Shown piece by piece: positions 32,449 to 43,446 of a DNA stretch of 64,000 bases. The DNA is from Methanothermococcus okinawensis IH1 (GTDB lineage Archaea; AGJL01; Methanococci; Methanococcales; Methanococcaceae), in assembly GCF_000179575.2 (NCBI RefSeq), contig NC_015636.1, positions 969,495 through 1,033,494 of the forward strand, given 5' to 3'. Made by a program: the position numbers and the translations under genes. The notes below the pieces were generated by a model. The model was not told the DNA's origin and did no database searches. It worked only from the letters and a program-made list of their open reading frames with translations. How positions within the stretch are numbered: position 1 is the stretch's first letter; each line of letters begins with the position of its first letter.

Positions 32449-33606
32449 TTATTCTAAATGGGAATTGATATGATATACAATTTTATTTCCATCTTCCTTA
32501 GCACCGATAATATCCAATTCCTCCATTTTTCTTAGATTGTATCTAACAGTTTCAACATTCATATCCAAATCTTTGGCTATTTTTCTTAAATGGGCATCAT
32601 TATTTAACAGGTATTGGTATATCTCATTTTGAGTATCATTTAGATATAACAAAAGTAAATCATTTTTATCCATTCCCACCGGGTGGTATATTATTTTATT
32701 GCCTATCTTTTTACTTTTTATTAATTCTGCCTTCTCCAATATTCTTAAATGCCACGATAATGTTGATAATGGCGTATTTAGCTCTTCCGATAATTTTCTT
32801 AAATGACACCCGGGGTTATCTATTATATAATCATAAATTTCTTTTCTCTTTGTATTTAAAAGAACCTTATCTCTGCTATTTGTGTTTATCCTCAATATTA
32901 CAAATACCGATGTGGATGCCATATGTAATAGAAAGTTTGCTAATTTCTTTTTTAAAGCTTCAAAAATGCTTACAATGGATAATAATGAGGCTAATATAAG
33001 CAAAATCATTGTTATAGGGGGAGTAAAAACCTTTTTAATCATGAAAATATATATAAAATTAGCCAAACTTAATTTGTCTGGTTTAAATCCCGCATATATT
33101 TTATTCCCTATCTTTATCGCAGCAGGTTCTCCATTTGAATATGTTGCAATAATTTCTCCCTTTTTAGGATAGGTGTAATAACCAATAACTTGGGTTTTGT
33201 TGAGTTTTAAAGGGTCTTTTACCCAATATATTGTAGTTGATGTATTGATTTTTTTAGAGCTTGGCAATGGGGCAAATATTATGGCATTGGTTGATGTATT
33301 AATATCTTTATGAGATATAATTAAATTTACTAGTTTGGAATTATTTGTAATTTTAAATTTAAGTTTTTTAATCAAAGGAATTTCTATATCTGCATTTATA
33401 TAGGGTGGTGTTATAATATATTCCTTTTTTTCTCCTACATAGAATACAGGGCTGTTATTTACATAATCCAAATAAACTGTATTATTGTAAATATTAATAT
33501 CTACGCCGTCAATAGTATGATGTGTGCAATTATTAAATGCATAGGTGCCACTAAGTAAATACATTGCAATTAGTATAGTAACTATTATGCCATAAAATTT
33601 TTTCAT
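32449..33606 (-). CDS. Membrane-anchored transcriptional regulator with two winged-helix domains
   Basis: A 385-aa protein: signal/anchor helix (1-23), outside domain with several N-x-S/T sequons (about 24-190), two hydrophobic segments (about 188-220 and 225-242), then two cytoplasmic winged helices. The first reads GCHLRKLSEELNTPLSTLSW with a wing at KKIGNKIIYHP. The second reads AHLRKIAKDLDMNVETVRYN with a wing at KEDGNKIVYHI. It looks like a one-component receptor that senses something outside and binds DNA inside. The start is ATG after GGGGATTATT. It is last of three genes (35484 to 32449), the first of which has the shared surface-gene promoter motif. Confidence 0.72.
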   Translation of the reverse strand: MKKFYGIIVTILIAMYLLSGTYAFNNCTHHTIDGVDINIYNNTVYLDYVNNSPVFYVGEKKEYIITPPYINADIEIPLIKKLKFKITNNSKLVNLIISHKDINTSTNAIIFAPLPSSKKINTSTTIYWVKDPLKLNKTQVIGYYTYPKKGEIIATYSNGEPAAIKIGNKIYAGFKPDKLSLANFIYIFMIKKVFTPPITMILLILASLLSIVSIFEALKKKLANFLLHMASTSVFVILRINTNSRDKVLLNTKRKEIYDYIIDNPGCHLRKLSEELNTPLSTLSWHLRILEKAELIKSKKIGNKIIYHPVGMDKNDLLLLYLNDTQNEIYQYLLNNDAHLRKIAKDLDMNVETVRYNLRKMEELDIIGAKEDGNKIVYHINSHLE

Positions 33607-33632
33607 AATAATCCCCTAGGGATATAATAAAA

Positions 33633-33923
33633 TCAGTGATTATTTAGAAAAATACCGACAGATATTAAAATTGAAGCCATTACTAAGCTTATAATTCCAA
33701 ATGACATATTGGTATTAATACCACCCATAAATATCATTAAAGAAATCTCTAAAAATATTATTGAAATACCTATTGATAAAGAACCCAATAATGTATTTTT
33801 TCTTCTTTTCTTATATCTTTTTTCTAATTTTACGACAATATCCTCTTCTTTATCTTCGATACTTATCAATTCAGGGGAATTCTCATTATTCAATTCAATT
33901 TTATGTTTTTTATCATCTTCCAT
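33633..33923 (-). CDS. Small two-helix membrane protein
   Basis: A 96-aa protein of unknown function: charged cytoplasmic N-terminus (MEDDKKHKIELNNENSPELI), a basic patch KRYKKRRKN and two hydrophobic segments (about residues 48-66 and 72-92). I choose ATG 33923 because GGTGA, which overlaps the stop codon of the upstream gene (33928-33930), is then a proper SD. This implies translational coupling. It lies between the 518-aa receptor-like protein and the winged-helix regulator and may be an accessory to them. Confidence 0.65.
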   Translation of the reverse strand: MEDDKKHKIELNNENSPELISIEDKEEDIVVKLEKRYKKRRKNTLLGSLSIGISIIFLEISLMIFMGGINTNMSFGIISLVMASILISVGIFLNNH

Positions 33924-33927
33924 TTTT

Positions 33928-35484
33928 TCACCAATTGCCATGTTTTCCATCATTATAATGCACCTCCAAGCCTATATTAATTGCAATTTCATAGGATTTT
34001 TTACTTGACAAATATACAACAGTTCGAGTAGTATTTAATGCTGATATAATTGCCTTTGCATCATTTAGTGGTATATCCTTTAATTCATGCAAATCCCTAA
34101 TATCCATTCGTTCTTCGTCACTAAATTTATATATTATAGGATTGTATAGATTTTTATAATTACAACCCTCAGGAACATATATATTTTTGAATTCTAAGTA
34201 TATTAGCTCTGCCAATTCATCGGGCAATTCGCCACTAATGATTAAAGTTTTCCTTCGATTTAGGTATAGCAACGGCAATAATGCCAATATAATTGGCGAT
34301 ATAACACCATTAAGCACAACTGCGGATTTTATTTTTTTTGGTGAATTAGGATGTTTTATTACCACAGCAAATAGTTTTAATTCTTTTGGTTTAACTTCCT
34401 CGTGTTCTGTATTTTCAGAAGTTTCTTTATCTTTATTATTATTTTCTTTGGTTTTTGTATGCTGGTGGGATGGCGTATTTTTATTATTTGGAGGATTTAT
34501 AGTGTTATGTGGATTATTTGAGGGAGTAGTAGTTATGTGATGTTTGGGAGGACTTGGTATGTAAGTAGTTTGGGGAGGACTTGGAGGATATGTATTATAG
34601 GGTATGTAAAAATCCAAACCTTTAACTTTGGCTATTCCAATGATATATTTATTATTAATATTAAATGCAGGCTTTATAGTAATATTTTCATAAGTATCAT
34701 GCCATGCTTTAAAATTTATATAAAATACAGGAACTCCACCATTAGGTATATCTACATTAAATGTCCTAATGATACTTTGATTTGGTTTTAATATAGAGCT
34801 CTCATTTCCAAGATTAATTTTTGAGTTATTTACAACAGCCCAGTAGGTAATATTGGTATTTAATGTTATACTTTGGGTGTTATTTATATTATAAGTAGCA
34901 ATCCATTTCGTTGTTCCGTTATTTAAAGGACGAGATGATTTTGTTATTGAAAATGGGATGGATTTTGAATATCTTACTTTAATCCTTGAAGGCACTTTGA
35001 AACTGATATTGCTATCATTGAAATGTAGTTTATCCGAATTTAAATATCGTTTTAATTTAATTAATTTATATGAGCTCGGAGGAATTTTAATACTAACATT
35101 TTTAATATCATAACCTTCTGGAAATGATACATTGATAGATATATTAAAATTATAATTGTTATATATTTTGTAATATATAGTCCATATATTGTTGTTTCTA
35201 CTTGCCGATATATTTATTGATATATTTATTTTCTTAGGCGGGACATCAACCGTTATATTTTTTGGATATGGAATATAATTTGTTGCATTGTTGTAATATA
35301 AGTATATACTAAATGCATTTGGATTACTGTAATCGATATAAAGTTTGGAAATATTTATCGATTGAGTTTCATTTGGATAAAAAATTATATCCTCGTAGCT
35401 ATATATTTTAGGAAAACCTTTTGGTAAGGAAATAAACATTAAAATTATTATTAGTAAAACTATTATAGAATTGTAATATTTCAT
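33928..35484 (-). CDS. Surface/transmembrane protein with Pro/Thr-rich stalk and cytoplasmic domain
   Basis: 518 aa, not recognised. It has a signal helix (about 1-22), a sequon-rich outside beta domain (about 25-310), then a Pro/Thr/Asn/His-rich stalk (PPSPPQTTYIPSPPKHH and following), a charged stretch, one membrane helix (about 405-425, LNGVISPIILALLPLLYL) and a cytoplasmic tail of about 95 residues. The tail (ISGELPDELAELIYLEF ... NDAKAIISALNTTRTVVYLS) faintly resembles a PIN-like fold, but acidic residues are too scattered to claim it. ATG 35484 has SD GGTGTT. It is preceded by the shared promoter motif at 35545-35579 and leads into the regulator gene. Confidence 0.6.
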   Translation of the reverse strand: MKYYNSIIVLLIIILMFISLPKGFPKIYSYEDIIFYPNETQSINISKLYIDYSNPNAFSIYLYYNNATNYIPYPKNITVDVPPKKINISINISASRNNNIWTIYYKIYNNYNFNISINVSFPEGYDIKNVSIKIPPSSYKLIKLKRYLNSDKLHFNDSNISFKVPSRIKVRYSKSIPFSITKSSRPLNNGTTKWIATYNINNTQSITLNTNITYWAVVNNSKINLGNESSILKPNQSIIRTFNVDIPNGGVPVFYINFKAWHDTYENITIKPAFNINNKYIIGIAKVKGLDFYIPYNTYPPSPPQTTYIPSPPKHHITTTPSNNPHNTINPPNNKNTPSHQHTKTKENNNKDKETSENTEHEEVKPKELKLFAVVIKHPNSPKKIKSAVVLNGVISPIILALLPLLYLNRRKTLIISGELPDELAELIYLEFKNIYVPEGCNYKNLYNPIIYKFSDEERMDIRDLHELKDIPLNDAKAIISALNTTRTVVYLSSKKSYEIAINIGLEVHYNDGKHGNW

Positions 35485-35544
35485 AGATAACACCAAATAG
35501 GCAATACTCAGCACTACATATTATTATAATAAAATTAGATGGTA

Positions 35545-35579
35545 TAATATATATAATTTATAGAACATTTATTGGACAA
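35545..35579 (-). promoter_or_regulatory. Surface-gene promoter motif, copy 1
   Basis: On the minus strand TGTCCAATAAATG is followed directly by TTCTATAAATTATATATA. It ends about 60 bases upstream of ATG 35484. It contains a TATA-like element (TATAAATTATATATA) and an upstream conserved half that basal promoters do not need. Nearly identical sequences precede the 610-aa and 1510-aa surface protein genes. Confidence 0.7.
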
Positions 35580-35659
35580 TAAAAAAATAAAAATAGAATT
35601 TTAATTTCTTTAAAAAAATAGTTATTGTTTTAGTTATTTATTATTATTTTATTATTATA

Positions 35660-36433
35660 TTACTTGGTGTCGCTTTTATTATTTTTTTCATATTCCTTAT
35701 TATCGTCGTTTTTCCCCATTCTTCTAATCTCCAAGTAGATAAATATTATAATCAATACTACAAGGATTATTAACCAAAATATCACATAACCATAAGTTGG
35801 CAATTTTGGTAATGGCAATACTGAAAACTCCGCATTTACAATAAACAATGTATTTTTTGGAACTTTAAAGTTATTTCCCTCTGGTTTTAAGTATGTTAGG
35901 TGATAGGGTGAATCGAACTTTATATTTAAATTATCTATATCCATATCACAACCTATTGGCAAGGATACAGTTTTAAATAAAATTCCATTATCAACGATAT
36001 CGGCATCATAAGTTAAATATACCGTTACATTGGAATGTTTATCAATTGGTTCCCATATTTCATAGCATATAGTTGTAAAATTAGCCCCATTGTTATTTTT
36101 CACATATAACTTCATAGGTGTTAATTTTCCGTTTCCAATTTTGTAGTATCCTTTTAAATGGCTTACATCAATAGATTTAACCTCTTTTGTAAAAGGAATT
36201 GGTACAATTAAAATTTTTTTAGGTCCCTGCTCCTGCAATCTCAACTCCCCAATACCTGGGACTAATGGGTAGGATACGAGGTTTTTTATTACAAAAGTAT
36301 TTTTAATATTGGCCTGAGCTCCGTTATTAACATTTACATCCATAGTATAATTGGTAATTTTTTCAACATCGGCATAACTGTAAGACAGTGTAGATAGCAA
36401 TAATAGTGAAAATACTAAACCTATTTTTTTCAT
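35660..36433 (-). CDS. Secreted membrane-anchored protein of unknown function
   Basis: 257 aa: signal peptide (about 1-21, KKIGLVFSLLLLSTLSYSYA), an outside domain of about 190 residues with a few sequons (NYTMDV, NVTVYL), one C-terminal membrane helix (about 212-234, VIFWLIILVVLIIIFIYL) and a short charged cytoplasmic tail. The family is not recognised. The start is ATG after GAGGGAGAGT. It lies in the surface block, but its own upstream region lacks the shared promoter motif. Confidence 0.62.
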   Translation of the reverse strand: MKKIGLVFSLLLLSTLSYSYADVEKITNYTMDVNVNNGAQANIKNTFVIKNLVSYPLVPGIGELRLQEQGPKKILIVPIPFTKEVKSIDVSHLKGYYKIGNGKLTPMKLYVKNNNGANFTTICYEIWEPIDKHSNVTVYLTYDADIVDNGILFKTVSLPIGCDMDIDNLNIKFDSPYHLTYLKPEGNNFKVPKNTLFIVNAEFSVLPLPKLPTYGYVIFWLIILVVLIIIFIYLEIRRMGKNDDNKEYEKNNKSDTK

Positions 36434-36667
36434 ACTCTCCCTCAGCCCTTAATTTATTTTAATTTTATTTATAAAATTTTACATATATATCATTATTATT
36501 GTAAAATTCCAAATATTATGGTGAAATAAAACTAACATTAATAATAATATTATAAAACATATTTAAATAATATTCTATAAATTTCTAATACAGCTAAATT
36601 TTAAATTATTACTACAAAATAAAATTAAAATAATTAAAAAAAAAGAAATAAAAAATTTATTATTTAT

Positions 36668-38500
36668 TTAGTTATTTTTCCTTCTTCTTATTATACAACC
36701 TATACCAACTAAACCACTCAATAACATCAATAACGGTTCGTAGTTCTCTGCTATTGCACCACTAACAAGTGTTATCTTTGGAGAGGTTGTAGGAAGTAAT
36801 GAATGCGTAGGGTCGATACCTACAATGAATGCATCTGATGGATAGAATGTACCAGTTCCGTTAAGTTTGTAGTGTATTACAACTGTTTCATTATTTTGCA
36901 TCCCAGTTGAATCGTTATAACTTCCATCACCATCTGCTCCTCCATTAAGAGGATTCAATGCCCAATATATGCTCATGTTATATTTTGGGTTAGATACTGA
37001 ATGATTTCCAGTGTTGTTTAACATGTATGATTCATTTACGGATATATTGCCAATAATTGAAAAGTTTTGAGGTATTAAATCATAGGCATATATATAAGGT
37101 GATTTTGCACTTCCAATGTTTTCTACTACAATGTATATATCGTAAGTTCCATCTTTATTTGGTATGATGTGTTTTGTTACCTTGATTAAATAACCTCCAA
37201 CAATTTGCATATATTCGGTAATTATATATGTACTACCATACTTTGTGCTGTATTCATTTACTGATCTATTTAATATTGTAATATTATTATCTGCTACTTT
37301 AAATGTGCAGTTTGCCCAAACTACTGGGACATTACTAAATGTGAAGTTATATTTGGATGTATTCCAATGAGCTCCTGGTGCAAGTGATGTGGGCAATGGA
37401 CTACCATAAGTATGATTTGAACCATTTATTAAATAAGTGGTATTGAATGGGTCCAATGTTGTTGGATTACTTCCATTTACAGCCCAAATATTGACATTTG
37501 TTAGATTGAATGAATATGATTTTGCTTTATTTTTAAATGTTGCATTTTCATACCATACGACATAGTTTCCATTTGCGTCTTGTTCAGGACCTTGCTTATC
37601 TGCACTGATTTGTCCATAACCCGATGCAAATATTCCAGGAATTACATCAGTTGCATTGTAATGTGTATTGCTATAATTAAAGTAAATTACTGCAAATCCA
37701 TAAGGTATTTCTGATGCATTTCTATTACTATATGAACTATTTGCAGTTACTGTAAAGTTTAACTGCTGTATAGAATTATCAGATAATAATATATCCGTCC
37801 AATTTAAAGCATCATTGTTATTTGATGTATATGGTCCATTCCAAACTACTGTTGAACCAGTACTGCTTTCATTTTTTGATATGTTTAATAATGTCCAAGT
37901 GCTATTTCCATAGTTATTATAGTCATTACTCAAATATTTTGTTATCTTTACACTCACATCTGATGTTGTATTTCTTTGTAATGTCATGTGCACGGTCCAA
38001 TTTACTATTTCATTGGCAGAAACTTTTGTTGTTGAGTAAGATTCATTTACAATAATAGGAGCTCCTACATTAGGCACATTGGATACATTGTAGCTAAATT
38101 TGTATATAATCCAGCTGTTATTTCCAAGAGTGCATATATGTATATATTTATTACCTCCTGAAAGATTAGTTTTTGGGTCAGGAGAATCTGCTACATTATT
38201 TCCAAGAACTATTCCAGATTTGTTATAATATTCTAAACCTGTTATGTTATTGTTTTGCATATTTACTGCAACCCATACATCATTTAATGTATCATTTACA
38301 TCAGTTGCAGTGTTGTTTATGATGATGTATGCTGTAATATTATGAATATTTGAAGTTATCCCATTTGCTGTGGCATTTCCAGTTATATTGTATTTCTCTT
38401 CATAGGTTACTTTTAGTGGTCCATTTGTGCCATAGGCAGATACCGCAGATATTGCCCCTATGATGCACAATAGACTTATTAATGCAATATATTTTTTCAT
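36668..38500 (-). CDS. Large surface protein with C-terminal membrane anchor
   Basis: 610 aa, probably an envelope glycoprotein. It has a signal peptide (1-22, ending SAVSA), a long beta-rich outside region with dozens of N-x-S/T sequons, and a C-terminal anchor helix followed by RRRKNN (about 587-610, LLMLLSGLVGIGCIIRRR). Short internal similarity (DALNWTDI and DATDVIPG type segments) hints at repeated domains. The start is ATG after AGGTGAGCTCTA. The shared promoter motif lies at 38672-38706, with a 12-bp tandem repeat in the leader. S-layer-associated or adhesive roles are possible. Confidence 0.7.
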   Translation of the reverse strand: MKKYIALISLLCIIGAISAVSAYGTNGPLKVTYEEKYNITGNATANGITSNIHNITAYIIINNTATDVNDTLNDVWVAVNMQNNNITGLEYYNKSGIVLGNNVADSPDPKTNLSGGNKYIHICTLGNNSWIIYKFSYNVSNVPNVGAPIIVNESYSTTKVSANEIVNWTVHMTLQRNTTSDVSVKITKYLSNDYNNYGNSTWTLLNISKNESSTGSTVVWNGPYTSNNNDALNWTDILLSDNSIQQLNFTVTANSSYSNRNASEIPYGFAVIYFNYSNTHYNATDVIPGIFASGYGQISADKQGPEQDANGNYVVWYENATFKNKAKSYSFNLTNVNIWAVNGSNPTTLDPFNTTYLINGSNHTYGSPLPTSLAPGAHWNTSKYNFTFSNVPVVWANCTFKVADNNITILNRSVNEYSTKYGSTYIITEYMQIVGGYLIKVTKHIIPNKDGTYDIYIVVENIGSAKSPYIYAYDLIPQNFSIIGNISVNESYMLNNTGNHSVSNPKYNMSIYWALNPLNGGADGDGSYNDSTGMQNNETVVIHYKLNGTGTFYPSDAFIVGIDPTHSLLPTTSPKITLVSGAIAENYEPLLMLLSGLVGIGCIIRRRKNN

Positions 38501-38516
38501 TAGAGCTCACCTCAAT

Positions 38517-38552
38517 AAATATGTAAGTAAATATGTAGGTAAATATGTAGGT
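38517..38552 (-). repeat. Three 12-bp tandem repeats in the leader of the 610-aa surface gene
   Basis: AAATATGTAGGT (plus strand) occurs three times in tandem, the first copy with one change (AAATATGTAAGT). It lies 17-52 bases upstream of the ATG and downstream of the shared promoter motif, so it would be in the mRNA leader. Copy number could vary between strains. Confidence 0.85.
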
Positions 38553-38671
38553 AAGATTTTTTATATATTGTATATATTTCAAACAGATAATTAACTATGA
38601 TTAAAAAATATATTAAAAAAATAAATAAGTTTTATAAGTTTTTTTTCATTACAAAGAAATATAATGTGATT

Positions 38672-38706
38672 ATAATATATATAATTTATAGAACATTTTT
38701 TAGACA
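38672..38706 (-). promoter_or_regulatory. Surface-gene promoter motif, copy 2
   Basis: On the minus strand TGTCTAAAAAATG continues into TTCTATAAATTATATATA. It lies about 170 bases upstream of ATG 38500 and 30 bases past the end of the 1510-aa gene. It differs from copy 1 at two positions in the conserved stretch and matches copy 3 completely. Confidence 0.7.
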
Positions 38707-38737
38707 TTTTTATTTTTAATAATTATTATAAAAATAG

Positions 38738-41700
38738 TTATTTAGGGTCTATACCTATATTGTATATATTAGAGAGCTCACAGTTATTTGATATATTGAG
38801 AATTATATTTATATTTTTCGATTCTCCAGCATTTAATCTGGTGAACTTAAACCAATAGACATTGTTGGTATTATTACCATAAGCATTGAAATCTCCAGAA
38901 ATATTTGTTACATTTGAATTATTTGGTTTTACCCAATAAACATAGACATCTCTTGCATTGTTATATGATTTAACCGTTATTGTTATATTTAAACTGTTAT
39001 TTTCCCAAATTGCAGAAAGTCCAGCTGAGATATTTATTTTTTTAATTAATAAATTATTTACAACTGTAATATTAATATTTTTAGAATCATCAAAATCCCA
39101 ATGGACATAATCATTTGTTGTATTTACAGTTATTATATAATTTCCAGGACTTGAAGGAGCAGTTAATGTAAAGTTTAATACAACTGTTTGATTTGGTAAT
39201 ATATGTGGAATAACTTTGTTAGTTTCCCCACTCCAACCATTTGGAAGTGTTATATTTACAGATATATTTGACATGTCCATAGTTCCTGTATCTTTAACAT
39301 ATACGGTAATATTAAATGTTTCAGATGTATTAACCGAAGATTTGGTACTGGTATCAACTATTGATAGATTATACCGAGGATTACCAGAAAGAATGCCTGT
39401 TTTTGTTGTTGTAGCTATTTTATACATATTTCCCCCAGTTAAGTAATCGTCATAGTCGCTTATTTCCCGAACAACAATCTCCCAGATACCATAAGTTTGA
39501 TTTGGATTACTTATATTAATGGTATAGTTATCCCAAGTTTCATCTCCAATTGCTGTAAATTCTTTATATTTAGTTCCATTTGGGAAATATATTGAAACAT
39601 TTATTGCTCCATCTCCATCATAAATAGATAGATTAAATGAAGAAAGACCCTTTGGTGTTGATATATACCATGTTTTACTTCCCAAGGTAGATGTATTATC
39701 ACCAACAATCATTGCATCTGGAGTTCCATAGTATCCGCTATGATTCGTATATGTATGGTTCAATTTTAAAACTGGGGAATTTATAGCTGATAATGAATAA
39801 TAATTGCCATTTTTAGATGGCCAACTGTCTTCAGAGATGTTTATAATCCACCACCCATATTTATTATTTGTATCAATTTGGAAGTAATTTGGAGGCTCCC
39901 CATTTTGTGCGTTATTTGGTGCAGTATAACTACCATATAATGTTCCATTTGGATAAGATATATTAACACCTAAACCATCCCCATCACAAATGCCAATAGT
40001 ATAATTTGAAGTTCCATAAGGTATTATAGTATAGTATCTATGCACCATGTTAGTTTGAGAATCTCTACATATTGTTGCAGTTCCTGAATCCGCTGCTAAT
40101 GATTTTGGCCTTTTAAACCATAATCCATCTGATATATTTGTTGCAAGAATTATTTGGTTTTCTCCAGTTTCATTATCGCCATAGTTCTTCTCCTGAGTTA
40201 ATTTTATCATCCACCATCCTTTATATCCATTAATTGATATATGCTTAGTAACCCATACTGGATTATCTTGTTCTATCAACCAAGACCACCACCCCCACCT
40301 TATTATTGTATAATTATTATCATAGGGATAAAATGAGTAATATAATGTTCCATTTGGATAATAGATACTAACATTTAGTCTATCTCCATACCCTGAATAA
40401 TTGTAATTATCAGGGTCAAATATAGATATATTAAAATCTGATGTAGCATAAACATAAAATTCATGAGTTGAAGAAACTATATCAGAAGAATGATTTAACA
40501 ATGTTGCATTAGGTGTTCCATAATATGTTTCTCCGTTTTTTATTGTATAGGTCATATTTACTTTCAGATTTAATCTATCATCCCCACTAATATTTAGATT
40601 ATAATAATTCCCTCCCGGATAATTAGACTTGGTATTATTAATAACAATTTTCCAAAGACCATAATTTCCGTTTGTATATATTTGTGTATAATTCCAATTA
40701 CCATTTGCAGATTCATTTAATGTTGTATATAATGTTCCATTTGGAGAATAGATATTTACAATAAAACCATCTCCATCAAAAACCCCAAAACTAAAATTTT
40801 CAACACTTTTTGGAACATAGAGCCAATAGGTATGTATTTGCTGGTTAAATAAACTACCTATTACAGCATCCCATTCACTATAATATCCTACCCACCCTAC
40901 ACCTCCATCATCTGCAATAATTCCATTGCTTTTATTGTCATCATCCCCTAATTTACCATCAGTTAAAGTAAATGAAATTGTATTGTTGTTAATTAATGTT
41001 GCATTTATTGAATACTGTTTTAAGTTATTAGGATTAAATTTATAATAATAAATCTTGCTATTATCTCGAATTTTCAATATATCCTTAGAATAGGTTATAT
41101 TAATATTAACACTTTCTCCCTTTGAAATGTTTGATATTCTAAATTTAATTAAGTTAAATGGCAAATTGGCATGTGGTTTAATAGGAATATTATTTTTATC
41201 AACAAAAGCCAAATAATTTAATCTTCCTTTACTGATTTTTACAGTTATATTGTATAATTCATTTTCAGTTGAATAATCATAAACATGCAAAATTCCAGTT
41301 TTATTATTTTTAAATGCTGTTTTTACATTATATCTTGGAATATAAAACATCATCGGGTCTATAATTCTTCCATTCTTTTTTCCATCTTCATCTAAAACTC
41401 CATCTTTCAATGTAAATGTTATCTTTGTTCTATCTTTACTTATGCTATAATTAACAGCTTTTAATGTTCCACTTACATTTTTCCAATAATAGATATACAT
41501 ACCTTCAGGGATTTTAAAAGGAAGTTTAACCGTTATATTTACAGAGCTCCCATTGGTTATGTTGGTAATATTTAGATATAATTTCTTATCTTTAAATTTT
41601 AACTGCTCAAATTTTCCTCTATTAATAGTGAAGTTTATTGAATAATTTCTATTTCCATTAGAAATATTTATGGTTTCAAAGTTTGATTTTTTATTATTCT

Positions 41701-43270
41701 CTTTGGTTTTGTTATTTACTACTGACAAATTAACAAAGGCATTACCACATCTTATTTTTACAACTTTTATATCATTTGTAAGATTTATTTTAAAGCTGTT
41801 ATTTTTTATTTCAGCTCTTCCTCTAATATTTTTAGGCAATAAGGTATAATTAACATACTTTGGCTGAATTAGATGCCAACTAATATTACCAATAATTATA
41901 GAGCTGTTTAAGGATACATTTATTTTATAATCATCAACATAAATATCCTTTGTTAAGTTATCTACAACTACTTTATAAACTCCTACATTTTTAGCTTCAA
42001 ATTCTGCAATATAATTATCTTTATCCCCTGAGAAATTTAGAGTTATGGTTTTATTGTTTGGAGTTATAATAAATGCTTTATTTGGTTTAAAGTTGGTTTT
42101 TGTGGTTATATTCTCTAATAAGAAATAAATATTTTTTAATATTATTGATTTATTTTTCTCTTTCTTATTATTTATTAAAACGATAGTTTTGGCATTTCCA
42201 CAGGTTAAAATTACACTATAATTATTATTTGTAAGATTTATAGGTATGCAGAAACTACCATTTTTAATAGAGACATTTCCACTTAAATTTATCGGCATAA
42301 TATTATATTTAACAGTCTTTGGCATAATATAATAATAGGATATATTACCAAAAATACAACTATTGTTAAAATTAGCGTTAATTTTGTAGTAATCTACAAC
42401 AAACGATTTTTTAATTCCATCAATTATCACTGTGTAATTTCCCAATATAATATTTTTATTTATTTTTGTCGATAAAATGTAATTTTTTCCTTTTTTATGG
42501 ATTTTTAAATCAATAATTTCATTATTTGGAGCTATTATGTATGCGTTATTTGGTTTAAAGTTGGTTTTTATAATTATTTTTTCTGATGGGAAATAAATAT
42601 CTTTTACTATTATTGTTTTATTTTTTACTGTTTTATTTTGGGTGTAATTTAAAAATATGGTTTTATTTAGTGTTTCATTTCCAAATCTTGAATAAATTTT
42701 AATAGCATTATTTAAAATCACGGGGGATAATATATACTCATCACTATTGTTTATTCTAATAAATTTTAAGGGGATGTTATTCGCAACTCCACAGAGCTCA
42801 CCATTAGTTTTTACTACAACTTTATATCCATCAATTTTTATATTTAAATAATGTGTGCTTTTTAGGGCATTATTTTTGTTGATTTTATTAGTTTTATTAG
42901 TTTCAGAGTTATTAATTTTAGAGCTCCTATTAATTGTGACATTATTATTTAAATTTTTTGAAGTTAATTTTATAGTATAATTTTTAGTAAAATTACTGTT
43001 GTTAATATTATTGTAAATATTGGTAATATTTTTAGATAAATTGACTAAATTTGAAGTGAAATTTTTATTATGATTGTTTAATTCTGTAATATTTTTATTT
43101 TCTAAACTATTATTATTGTTAAAAGATATTGAGGCATTATTGCATAAATTGGTAAAATTGGAATAATTATCATCCGATATATTGTATAAGCTTGATAAAT
43201 TATCCCCTGTTGCAAAAGTTGATATTAACAATAAACATACCACTATCAAAGCAGATATTTGAAATTTCAT
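38738..43270 (-). CDS. Giant secreted surface protein with repeated PPC-like domains
   Basis: 1510 aa, with a signal peptide (1-24) and an extremely Asn-rich outside region full of N-x-S/T sequons. About residues 25-150 are low-complexity. Then come repeated Ig-like units (each ending with phrases like NFKPNNAYIIAPNNE and NFKPNKAFIITPNNK). Four PPC-like repeats follow (from about 810; each has YPNGTLY or similar and YGWWIINI or similar), then a CARDB/NEW3-like domain (about 1290-1400). There is no C-terminal anchor, so it may bind the 610-aa anchored neighbour. ATG 43270 has SD AGGGTGTG; the GTG at 43279 is inside that SD. Confidence 0.72.
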   Translation of the reverse strand: MKFQISALIVVCLLLISTFATGDNLSSLYNISDDNYSNFTNLCNNASISFNNNNSLENKNITELNNHNKNFTSNLVNLSKNITNIYNNINNSNFTKNYTIKLTSKNLNNNVTINRSSKINNSETNKTNKINKNNALKSTHYLNIKIDGYKVVVKTNGELCGVANNIPLKFIRINNSDEYILSPVILNNAIKIYSRFGNETLNKTIFLNYTQNKTVKNKTIIVKDIYFPSEKIIIKTNFKPNNAYIIAPNNEIIDLKIHKKGKNYILSTKINKNIILGNYTVIIDGIKKSFVVDYYKINANFNNSCIFGNISYYYIMPKTVKYNIMPINLSGNVSIKNGSFCIPINLTNNNYSVILTCGNAKTIVLINNKKEKNKSIILKNIYFLLENITTKTNFKPNKAFIITPNNKTITLNFSGDKDNYIAEFEAKNVGVYKVVVDNLTKDIYVDDYKINVSLNSSIIIGNISWHLIQPKYVNYTLLPKNIRGRAEIKNNSFKINLTNDIKVVKIRCGNAFVNLSVVNNKTKENNKKSNFETINISNGNRNYSINFTINRGKFEQLKFKDKKLYLNITNITNGSSVNITVKLPFKIPEGMYIYYWKNVSGTLKAVNYSISKDRTKITFTLKDGVLDEDGKKNGRIIDPMMFYIPRYNVKTAFKNNKTGILHVYDYSTENELYNITVKISKGRLNYLAFVDKNNIPIKPHANLPFNLIKFRISNISKGESVNINITYSKDILKIRDNSKIYYYKFNPNNLKQYSINATLINNNTISFTLTDGKLGDDDNKSNGIIADDGGVGWVGYYSEWDAVIGSLFNQQIHTYWLYVPKSVENFSFGVFDGDGFIVNIYSPNGTLYTTLNESANGNWNYTQIYTNGNYGLWKIVINNTKSNYPGGNYYNLNISGDDRLNLKVNMTYTIKNGETYYGTPNATLLNHSSDIVSSTHEFYVYATSDFNISIFDPDNYNYSGYGDRLNVSIYYPNGTLYYSFYPYDNNYTIIRWGWWSWLIEQDNPVWVTKHISINGYKGWWMIKLTQEKNYGDNETGENQIILATNISDGLWFKRPKSLAADSGTATICRDSQTNMVHRYYTIIPYGTSNYTIGICDGDGLGVNISYPNGTLYGSYTAPNNAQNGEPPNYFQIDTNNKYGWWIINISEDSWPSKNGNYYSLSAINSPVLKLNHTYTNHSGYYGTPDAMIVGDNTSTLGSKTWYISTPKGLSSFNLSIYDGDGAINVSIYFPNGTKYKEFTAIGDETWDNYTINISNPNQTYGIWEIVVREISDYDDYLTGGNMYKIATTTKTGILSGNPRYNLSIVDTSTKSSVNTSETFNITVYVKDTGTMDMSNISVNITLPNGWSGETNKVIPHILPNQTVVLNFTLTAPSSPGNYIITVNTTNDYVHWDFDDSKNINITVVNNLLIKKINISAGLSAIWENNSLNITITVKSYNNARDVYVYWVKPNNSNVTNISGDFNAYGNNTNNVYWFKFTRLNAGESKNINIILNISNNCELSNIYNIGIDPK

Positions 43271-43412
43271 AAAACACACCCTAAATTTAATTAAAAAGTA
43301 ATATTGATGGATAAATAATTTTTTAAAATAAATATATTAAATTTTAATATTTTAATCTTTTTATATATTCTTATCGCTATATATTTTTCTTTTATTTAAT
43401 TATAATTTAAGA

Positions 43413-43446
43413 AAATATATATAATTTATAGAACATTTTTTAGACA
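43413..43446 (-). promoter_or_regulatory. Surface-gene promoter motif, copy 3
   Basis: On the minus strand TGTCTAAAAAATG continues into TTCTATAAATTATATAT. It lies about 140 bases upstream of ATG 43270 and 50 bases after the UbiA-family gene. Identity with copy 2 runs through the whole motif and stops on both sides, as expected for a conserved regulatory site rather than a longer duplication. Confidence 0.7.

Follow-up and report, generated by a model that had tools for sequence, protein, structure and literature searches.

What regulates a row of surface-protein genes in the archaeon Methanothermococcus okinawensis IH1? The minus strand of a 64,000-nucleotide (nt) stretch of contig NC_015636.1 (G000:C2:969495-1033494), called the window here, carries six consecutive genes. 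They code for proteins of 1510, 610, 257, 518, 106 and 385 amino acids (aa), in that order, and the last is a predicted transcription regulator. The original prediction, made from the letters of the window, held that the 518-aa, 610-aa and 1510-aa genes are each preceded by a shared motif of about 32 bases with unrelated flanks, and that the regulator controls them from the membrane in a one-component signal path. The genes and the sites are where it placed them, and comparison with related genomes supports the proposed regulon. We conclude that the 385-aa protein is probably a one-component, membrane-tethered transcription activator with a regulon of surface genes. The features in question, in window coordinates, are the following.

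32449-33606, minus strand: regulator, 385 aa (open reading frame (ORF), Pfam, NCBIfam, hydropathy, AlphaFold2)
33633-33953, minus strand: 106-aa two-helix protein (ORF), in the 518-106-regulator transcription unit
33928-35484, minus strand: 518-aa protein (ORF), leading the 518-106-regulator unit
35660-36433, minus strand: 257-aa protein (ORF), downstream of the 610-aa gene
36668-38500, minus strand: 610-aa surface protein, called A (ORF)
38738-43270, minus strand: 1510-aa secreted adhesin-like protein, called the giant protein (ORF)
35549-35578, minus strand: site 1, TGTCCAATAAA joined to TGTTCTATAAA, plus TTATATAT; 94 nt upstream of the 518-aa start codon
38677-38706, minus strand: site 2, TGTCTAAAAAA joined to TGTTCTATAAA, plus TTATATAT; 206 nt upstream of the 610-aa start codon
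43417-43446, minus strand: site 3, TGTCTAAAAAA joined to TGTTCTATAAA, plus TTATATAT; 176 nt upstream of the 1510-aa start codon

A rare two-part promoter site

The 30-base motif has exactly three matches in the whole 1.68-Mb genome at up to three mismatches, and all of them lie inside the window. The genome searched comprises 1,677,455 bases in two contigs, the larger of 1,662,525 bases. A reversed control pattern gave no matches in the whole genome at the same threshold, and the full pattern gave none in six simulated genomes of equal size (third-order Markov). These counts, controls and simulations rule out a chance origin. The first 13 bases alone, with two mismatches allowed, were found 20 times in the window against 22.5 expected. 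This is not above chance, and therefore the evidence resides in the complete two-part site.

Alignment of all sites resolves the motif into a direct repeat, TGTCtAAaAa(a) followed by TGTTCtATAAA, then two to three bases and the TATA box. The half-sites have a period of 10 or 11 bp and therefore fall on the same face of the helix. Across 27 aligned sites, the distance from the second half-site to the TATA box is fixed, and a single base is the only departure from full conservation of the TGT and the C in the two halves. Flanking sequences are unrelated, both at the three window sites and throughout the alignment. The second half-site ends at the B recognition element (BRE), whose sequence here (CTATAAAtt) does not have the CCGAAA-type core of a strong methanogen BRE (PMC5512572). 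Judged from this missing core, the BRE is likely to be functionally weak.

When the motif is searched in its form with a period of 10, which is one base shorter, two further perfect sites appear in the genome, both unlinked to the cluster. The first is located 108 nt upstream of a gene for a 77-aa protein (L055:8292-8525), and the second 208 nt upstream of the gene for a 355-aa secreted protein with a CWB2 domain, a cell-wall-binding repeat (L056:7637-8704). Their chromosome positions are 1,051,632 and 1,278,911, respectively. The genome scan suggested by the original prediction thus yields five sites with their downstream genes, and judging by these the regulon extends beyond the cluster. The two unlinked sites, the direct-repeat period and the 257-aa membrane protein were all missing from that earlier account. 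A site with one mismatch at G000:C2:1590003 was excluded, as it lies within a coding frame and carries no TATA part, and an unlinked site with two mismatches at G000:C2:1566524 (L053:2555) was left out of the count. Position 1051632 was considered as the promoter of a ClC channel gene and rejected, since the site follows that gene and precedes the one for the 77-aa protein.

Conservation of the motif and the regulator

A comparison set of 36 Methanococcales genomes contains 27 motif sites in 11 genomes, with TGTC and TGTTC nearly invariant. The motif is present in all nine genomes with the regulator, at 22 of 22 assessable cluster promoters, and in two of the 27 others (G017 and G021). Orthologues of the regulator are 88% (G010), 62% (G003), 55% (G019), 54% (G020), 51% (G018) and 46% (G035) identical. 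Elsewhere the protein is incomplete: its frame is broken in G025, it is cut by a contig end in G022, and just the winged-helix half is left in G014. In G025 (L049:3619-4801), the outside part is split from the membrane-plus-winged-helix part with an overlap of 4-5 bases, so that the two parts are made as distinct proteins unless the assembly is wrong here. The G014 frame for the winged-helix half (G014:C1:217738-218205; L050:15757-16230) stands in a genome with no motif, where the entire cluster and the membrane half of the regulator appear to have been deleted.

The usual cluster order is A, B, 257, giant, 518, small two-helix protein and regulator, where B is a longer relative of A that the window genome lacks. 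Relocation has brought the giant gene to the front of the cluster in the window genome and to another contig in G003, and each time the motif moved along with it. G035 has neither the giant gene nor the 518 and small genes, and its motif directly precedes the regulator, which is the clearest sign of autoregulation. Indeed, wherever this could be assessed, the motif is located upstream of the transcription unit that contains the regulator, as expected if, as had been proposed, the protein regulates itself.

Two genomes carry additional arrangements. In G022:C39 (L064:1429 and 1484), a tandem duplication has doubled the motif ahead of A along with the flank upstream of it, and the second copy does not have the remaining promoter. 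In G020, three weaker motif-like sites with one to two mismatches (G020:C1:340461, 656640 and 943521; L060, L061 and L062) precede a type IV pilus-like operon, a gene for a FIST-FIST_C-TrmB protein and one for a Roadblock-like protein. Thus, the regulon may be wider in this genome.

Fate of the motif where the regulator is missing

Seven genomes (G006, G007, G008, G009, G013, G017 and G021) retain the surface genes without the regulator, and in these the motif is found at 3 of 16 promoters. Fisher's test gives p 1e-7 for promoters and p 0.0014 for the A promoter counted by genome (8/8 versus 1/7), values that ignore kinship and serve as a guide only. On a tree of A, the regulator-less genomes fall into two separate, well-supported groups, and therefore the absence of the regulator arose at least twice.

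In the lineage of G013, G017 and G021, the motif decays stepwise. Good sites remain at A and 518 in G021, whereas in G017, which is 97% identical to G021, a 14-base deletion has destroyed the A site. The 518 promoter of G013 has lost TGTC...TGTTC and keeps its TATA box and downstream flank, and all three genomes have just a remnant, TATAGAAATTGTTTTATAAAT, at the giant gene. By this comparison, the motif tracks the regulator and not the target genes.

A different outcome is observed in G008. Its contig C43 (L110) carries two neighboring A copies in which strong BREs of the GGCGAAA/GGCGAGA type, GGCGAAATTTATATATA and GGCGAGATATATAT, replace the motif. It is possible that these are a natural case of promoters freed from an activator.

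The regulator protein

The regulator is the sole DNA-binding protein encoded in the cluster. It begins with a signal or anchor helix (residues ~6-24), followed by an outside domain (~24-190), a membrane helix (~197-215), a weaker juxtamembrane hydrophobic helix (~222-240) and two winged helices (~250-310 and ~325-380). This agrees with the predicted first operon of a two-helix protein and a regulator with an outside domain, membrane helices and two winged helices, which is now supported by ORFs, Pfam and NCBIfam profiles, and hydropathy. The DNA-binding part matches the helix-turn-helix (HTH) family HTH_24 of Pfam in two stretches (8e-14), and also HTH_5 and HTH_20. Residues 247-308 form an ArsR-type winged helix (NCBIfam NF033788, ArsR/SmtB, 61.5 bits against a cut-off of 55). 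A hydrophobic segment at ~193-219 has a mean Kyte-Doolittle value of 1.8-2.7 in 7/7 orthologues, which have the N-terminal helix in addition. A membrane location is predicted on this basis, with the winged helices necessarily inside and the ~222-240 helix probably on the membrane surface.

The recognition helices STxxWHLRILEKA and VETVRYNLxKxE are invariant in seven orthologues with identity down to 46%. Two invariant recognition helices are the match that would be expected for an invariant two-part site. The AlphaFold2 model has a predicted local distance difference test (pLDDT) score of mostly 76-93 over residues 250-380 only. Foldseek matches of the whole model (winged helices of TFIIIC, ScpB and SelB) reflect the tandem winged helices only. 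The outside domain (~24-190) belongs to no recognized family, and comparison with the 257-aa protein found no relation. An impression of a reduced GATase1-like fold was set aside, given the quality of the model in this region (mean pLDDT 33), and we make no claim for it. Asgard archaea (L069, L070) and haloarchaeal plasmids encode distant relatives, which match in the winged-helix part alone.

Proposed mechanism and alternatives

These features suggest the following model. The 385-aa protein would be fixed in the membrane with one domain outside and two winged helices inside. Its winged-helix pair, or the winged helices of a dimer, would bind the direct half-sites TGTC and TGTTC, which are spaced one helical turn apart. 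Binding just upstream of a weak BRE and TATA would help TFB and TBP assemble on the promoter, and in the window genome this would activate the giant adhesin-like protein, the 610-aa and 257-aa proteins, the 518-106-regulator unit and the two unlinked units. The outside domain, possibly together with the 518-aa and 106-aa membrane proteins, may monitor the envelope or the surface structure once assembled.

Three lines of evidence favor activation. First, the element is located upstream of the BRE and TATA, which is where the archaeal activators Ptr2, EarA and TFB-RF1 bind (PMC5512572, PMC10665913, PMC5937170). Second, the BRE beside the motif appears weak, whereas that of regulator-less G008 is strong; gain of a strong BRE likewise makes the M. 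maripaludis fla promoter independent of EarA (PMC5512572). Third, one A promoter, that of G017, was disrupted once the regulator had been lost, which would fit genes that have ceased to be expressed. The original prediction had noted that the first half of the motif looks like an operator. An upstream activating element composed of two direct half-sites is the better description.

Several observations temper this model. Direct binding of the sites and activation are both deduced from sequence comparison, and the strong-BRE argument comes from one genome, G008. Two good sites persist in G021 and one in G017 without a regulator, and the model must therefore suppose that the regulator was lost recently or that something else binds there. 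The low-scoring model of the outside domain also weighs against it, as does the N-terminal helix, which could be either cleaved or an anchor. It may also be that the acting form is a regulator fragment released by proteolysis.

The second half-site touches the BRE, and so a repressor could act at the same place. The membrane-bound protein might thus control the same regulon by covering the BRE-proximal half-site and leaving it upon a signal, and its first winged helix does fall in the ArsR/SmtB group, many members of which repress. We nevertheless regard repression as unlikely, as the element lies wholly upstream of TATA, the strong BRE occurs where the regulator is gone, and the broken A promoter of G017 is what would be expected of genes that were already silent.

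It is also conceivable that an unlinked regulator binds the motif and that the linked membrane protein does something else, such as sensing the surface without contacting promoters. Sites retained in G017 and G021 would fit such a binder, and the transcription factors of the 36 genomes were profiled in part. However, motif decay in G013, G017 and G021 and motif absence in G006-G009 follow the linked gene. This gene encodes the only DNA-binding protein of the cluster and belongs to a transcription unit led by the motif wherever this could be assessed, and a second factor is therefore rather improbable. That the motif is an unusual core promoter, with a strong or alternative BRE spread by duplication or transfer and with no dedicated regulator, would suit its position abutting the BRE and TATA and the shuffling and duplication of surface genes between genomes, but is hardly credible given the unrelated flanks, the two-part structure with its variable period, the loss in G013 of the upstream part alone, and the tracking of the regulator gene.

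Membrane-tethered activation therefore remains our preferred reading. More tentatively, and with some doubt, the regulator might represent a family of euryarchaeal activators, not described so far, that are embedded in the membrane and from there load TFB and TBP onto promoters via two winged helices on a one-turn direct repeat. Such proteins would read the surface structure that they build through the outside domain and two co-transcribed membrane proteins, forming a closed feedback loop on adhesin assembly.

Surface and membrane proteins under the motif

Domain searches place the A, B, 257, 518 and 106 proteins in no known family. Alignment of orthologues indicates that the 518-aa protein consists of a signal, a beta-rich outside part, a Pro/Lys-rich linker, a membrane helix and an inside domain of ~110 aa. 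It has no match in Pfam, NCBIfam or PHROG, and profile searches with the 518-aa and 257-aa families against PDB gave nothing convincing. The 106-aa protein has two hydrophobic helices, and its orthologues occupy the same position in six other genomes. The 257-aa protein is secreted and carries a C-terminal membrane helix; its orthologues occur in 16 of the 36 genomes, exactly those in which the 610-aa gene is also found. In G019, the 257-aa gene is interrupted (L042:8861-9570) and the remaining cluster is intact. The 610-aa protein has a signal peptide and a C-terminal hydrophobic anchor ending in RRRKNN, with orthologues that are 52-84% identical.

The 1510-aa protein includes NPCBM_assoc (NPCBM-associated) and choice_anch_U (choice-of-anchor U) domains, and its relatives reach ~2,950 aa. 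The giant protein of G019 (L042:9703-18387; 2,894 aa) carries an L-type lectin domain (PF18483, 1.2e-99) and right-handed beta helices (PF13229, 1.4e-36). It is from such domains that we infer a putative adhesin. The 77-aa protein has a strong match in one other genome only, G003, where a 96-aa homologue (L057:3359-3646) lies directly after the motif and ahead of the giant-protein gene. The G003 protein resembles Roadblock/LC7 weakly and below threshold (E 0.017).

Comparison with known systems

Very few archaeal surface-protein regulators have a known site and regulon, and the ArnR study (2019), the first biochemical one on the membrane-bound type, is still the main one. The locus described here combines one protein, one 30-bp site and natural losses resembling deletion experiments, spread across the whole order. 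It makes two questions testable: by what means a membrane-held protein can activate a TFB/TBP promoter, and what governs the display of giant adhesin-like proteins by methanogens.

The nearest described case is that of ArnR and ArnR1 of Sulfolobus acidocaldarius, which are bound to the membrane, act as one-component regulators and use promoter boxes to activate genes for surface structures (PMC6396743); the regulator here is predicted to be of this type. In ArnR, a single HTH at the N-terminus is combined with a HAMP-like and sensor part and with two membrane helices at the C-terminus (PMC6396743). The order is reversed here, with the outside domain and membrane helix first and the two winged helices last. 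The ArnR/ArnR1 box is an inverted repeat, TCGAC-N5-GTCGA, whereas ours is a direct repeat, and ArnR targets type IV pili rather than adhesin-like proteins.

To our knowledge, EarA has been described without a membrane or outside domain. In Methanococcus maripaludis and Pyrococcus furiosus, it is a winged-helix activator of euryarchaeal surface-structure genes (PMC5512572, PMC10665913), and it resembles our case in that its site directly adjoins the upstream side of a weak BRE and in that a strong BRE removes the need for it. The motif was considered as an EarA site and this was ruled out: the EarA site is TACATA (PMC10665913), in up to four repeats at the archaellum operon, whereas the 27 sites here carry TGTC and TGTTC. 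TFB-RF1 of P. furiosus likewise binds just upstream of a weak BRE, recruits TFB, and regulates its own operon and an unlinked one (PMC5937170). However, its site is palindromic (TCTG-N5-CAGA), and it does not regulate surface genes from a membrane anchor.

Transmembrane transcription regulators (TTRs) combine a DNA-binding domain and at least one membrane helix in one protein, as profiles and hydropathy suggest for ours. They are widespread, and a survey counts 1,384 in 404 archaeal species (PMC10269533). TTRs form a broad class and not a family, and the literature searched describes no member with the same site or regulon. The ArsR/SmtB likeness concerns an ArsR-type winged helix, compared on the winged helix alone, and we attribute no metal-related role to the protein. 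A literature search, which did not extend to most subscription journals, found no paper on the locus, including by M. jannaschii locus names. The original suggestion that no such system has been described thus holds for the regulator family and its site in the literature searched, but not for the broader type. Surface genes controlled by a transmembrane one-component regulator are already known from ArnR. The regulator presented here falls into none of the families compared, and it differs from ArnR in its domain order, its two winged helices, its site and its targets.

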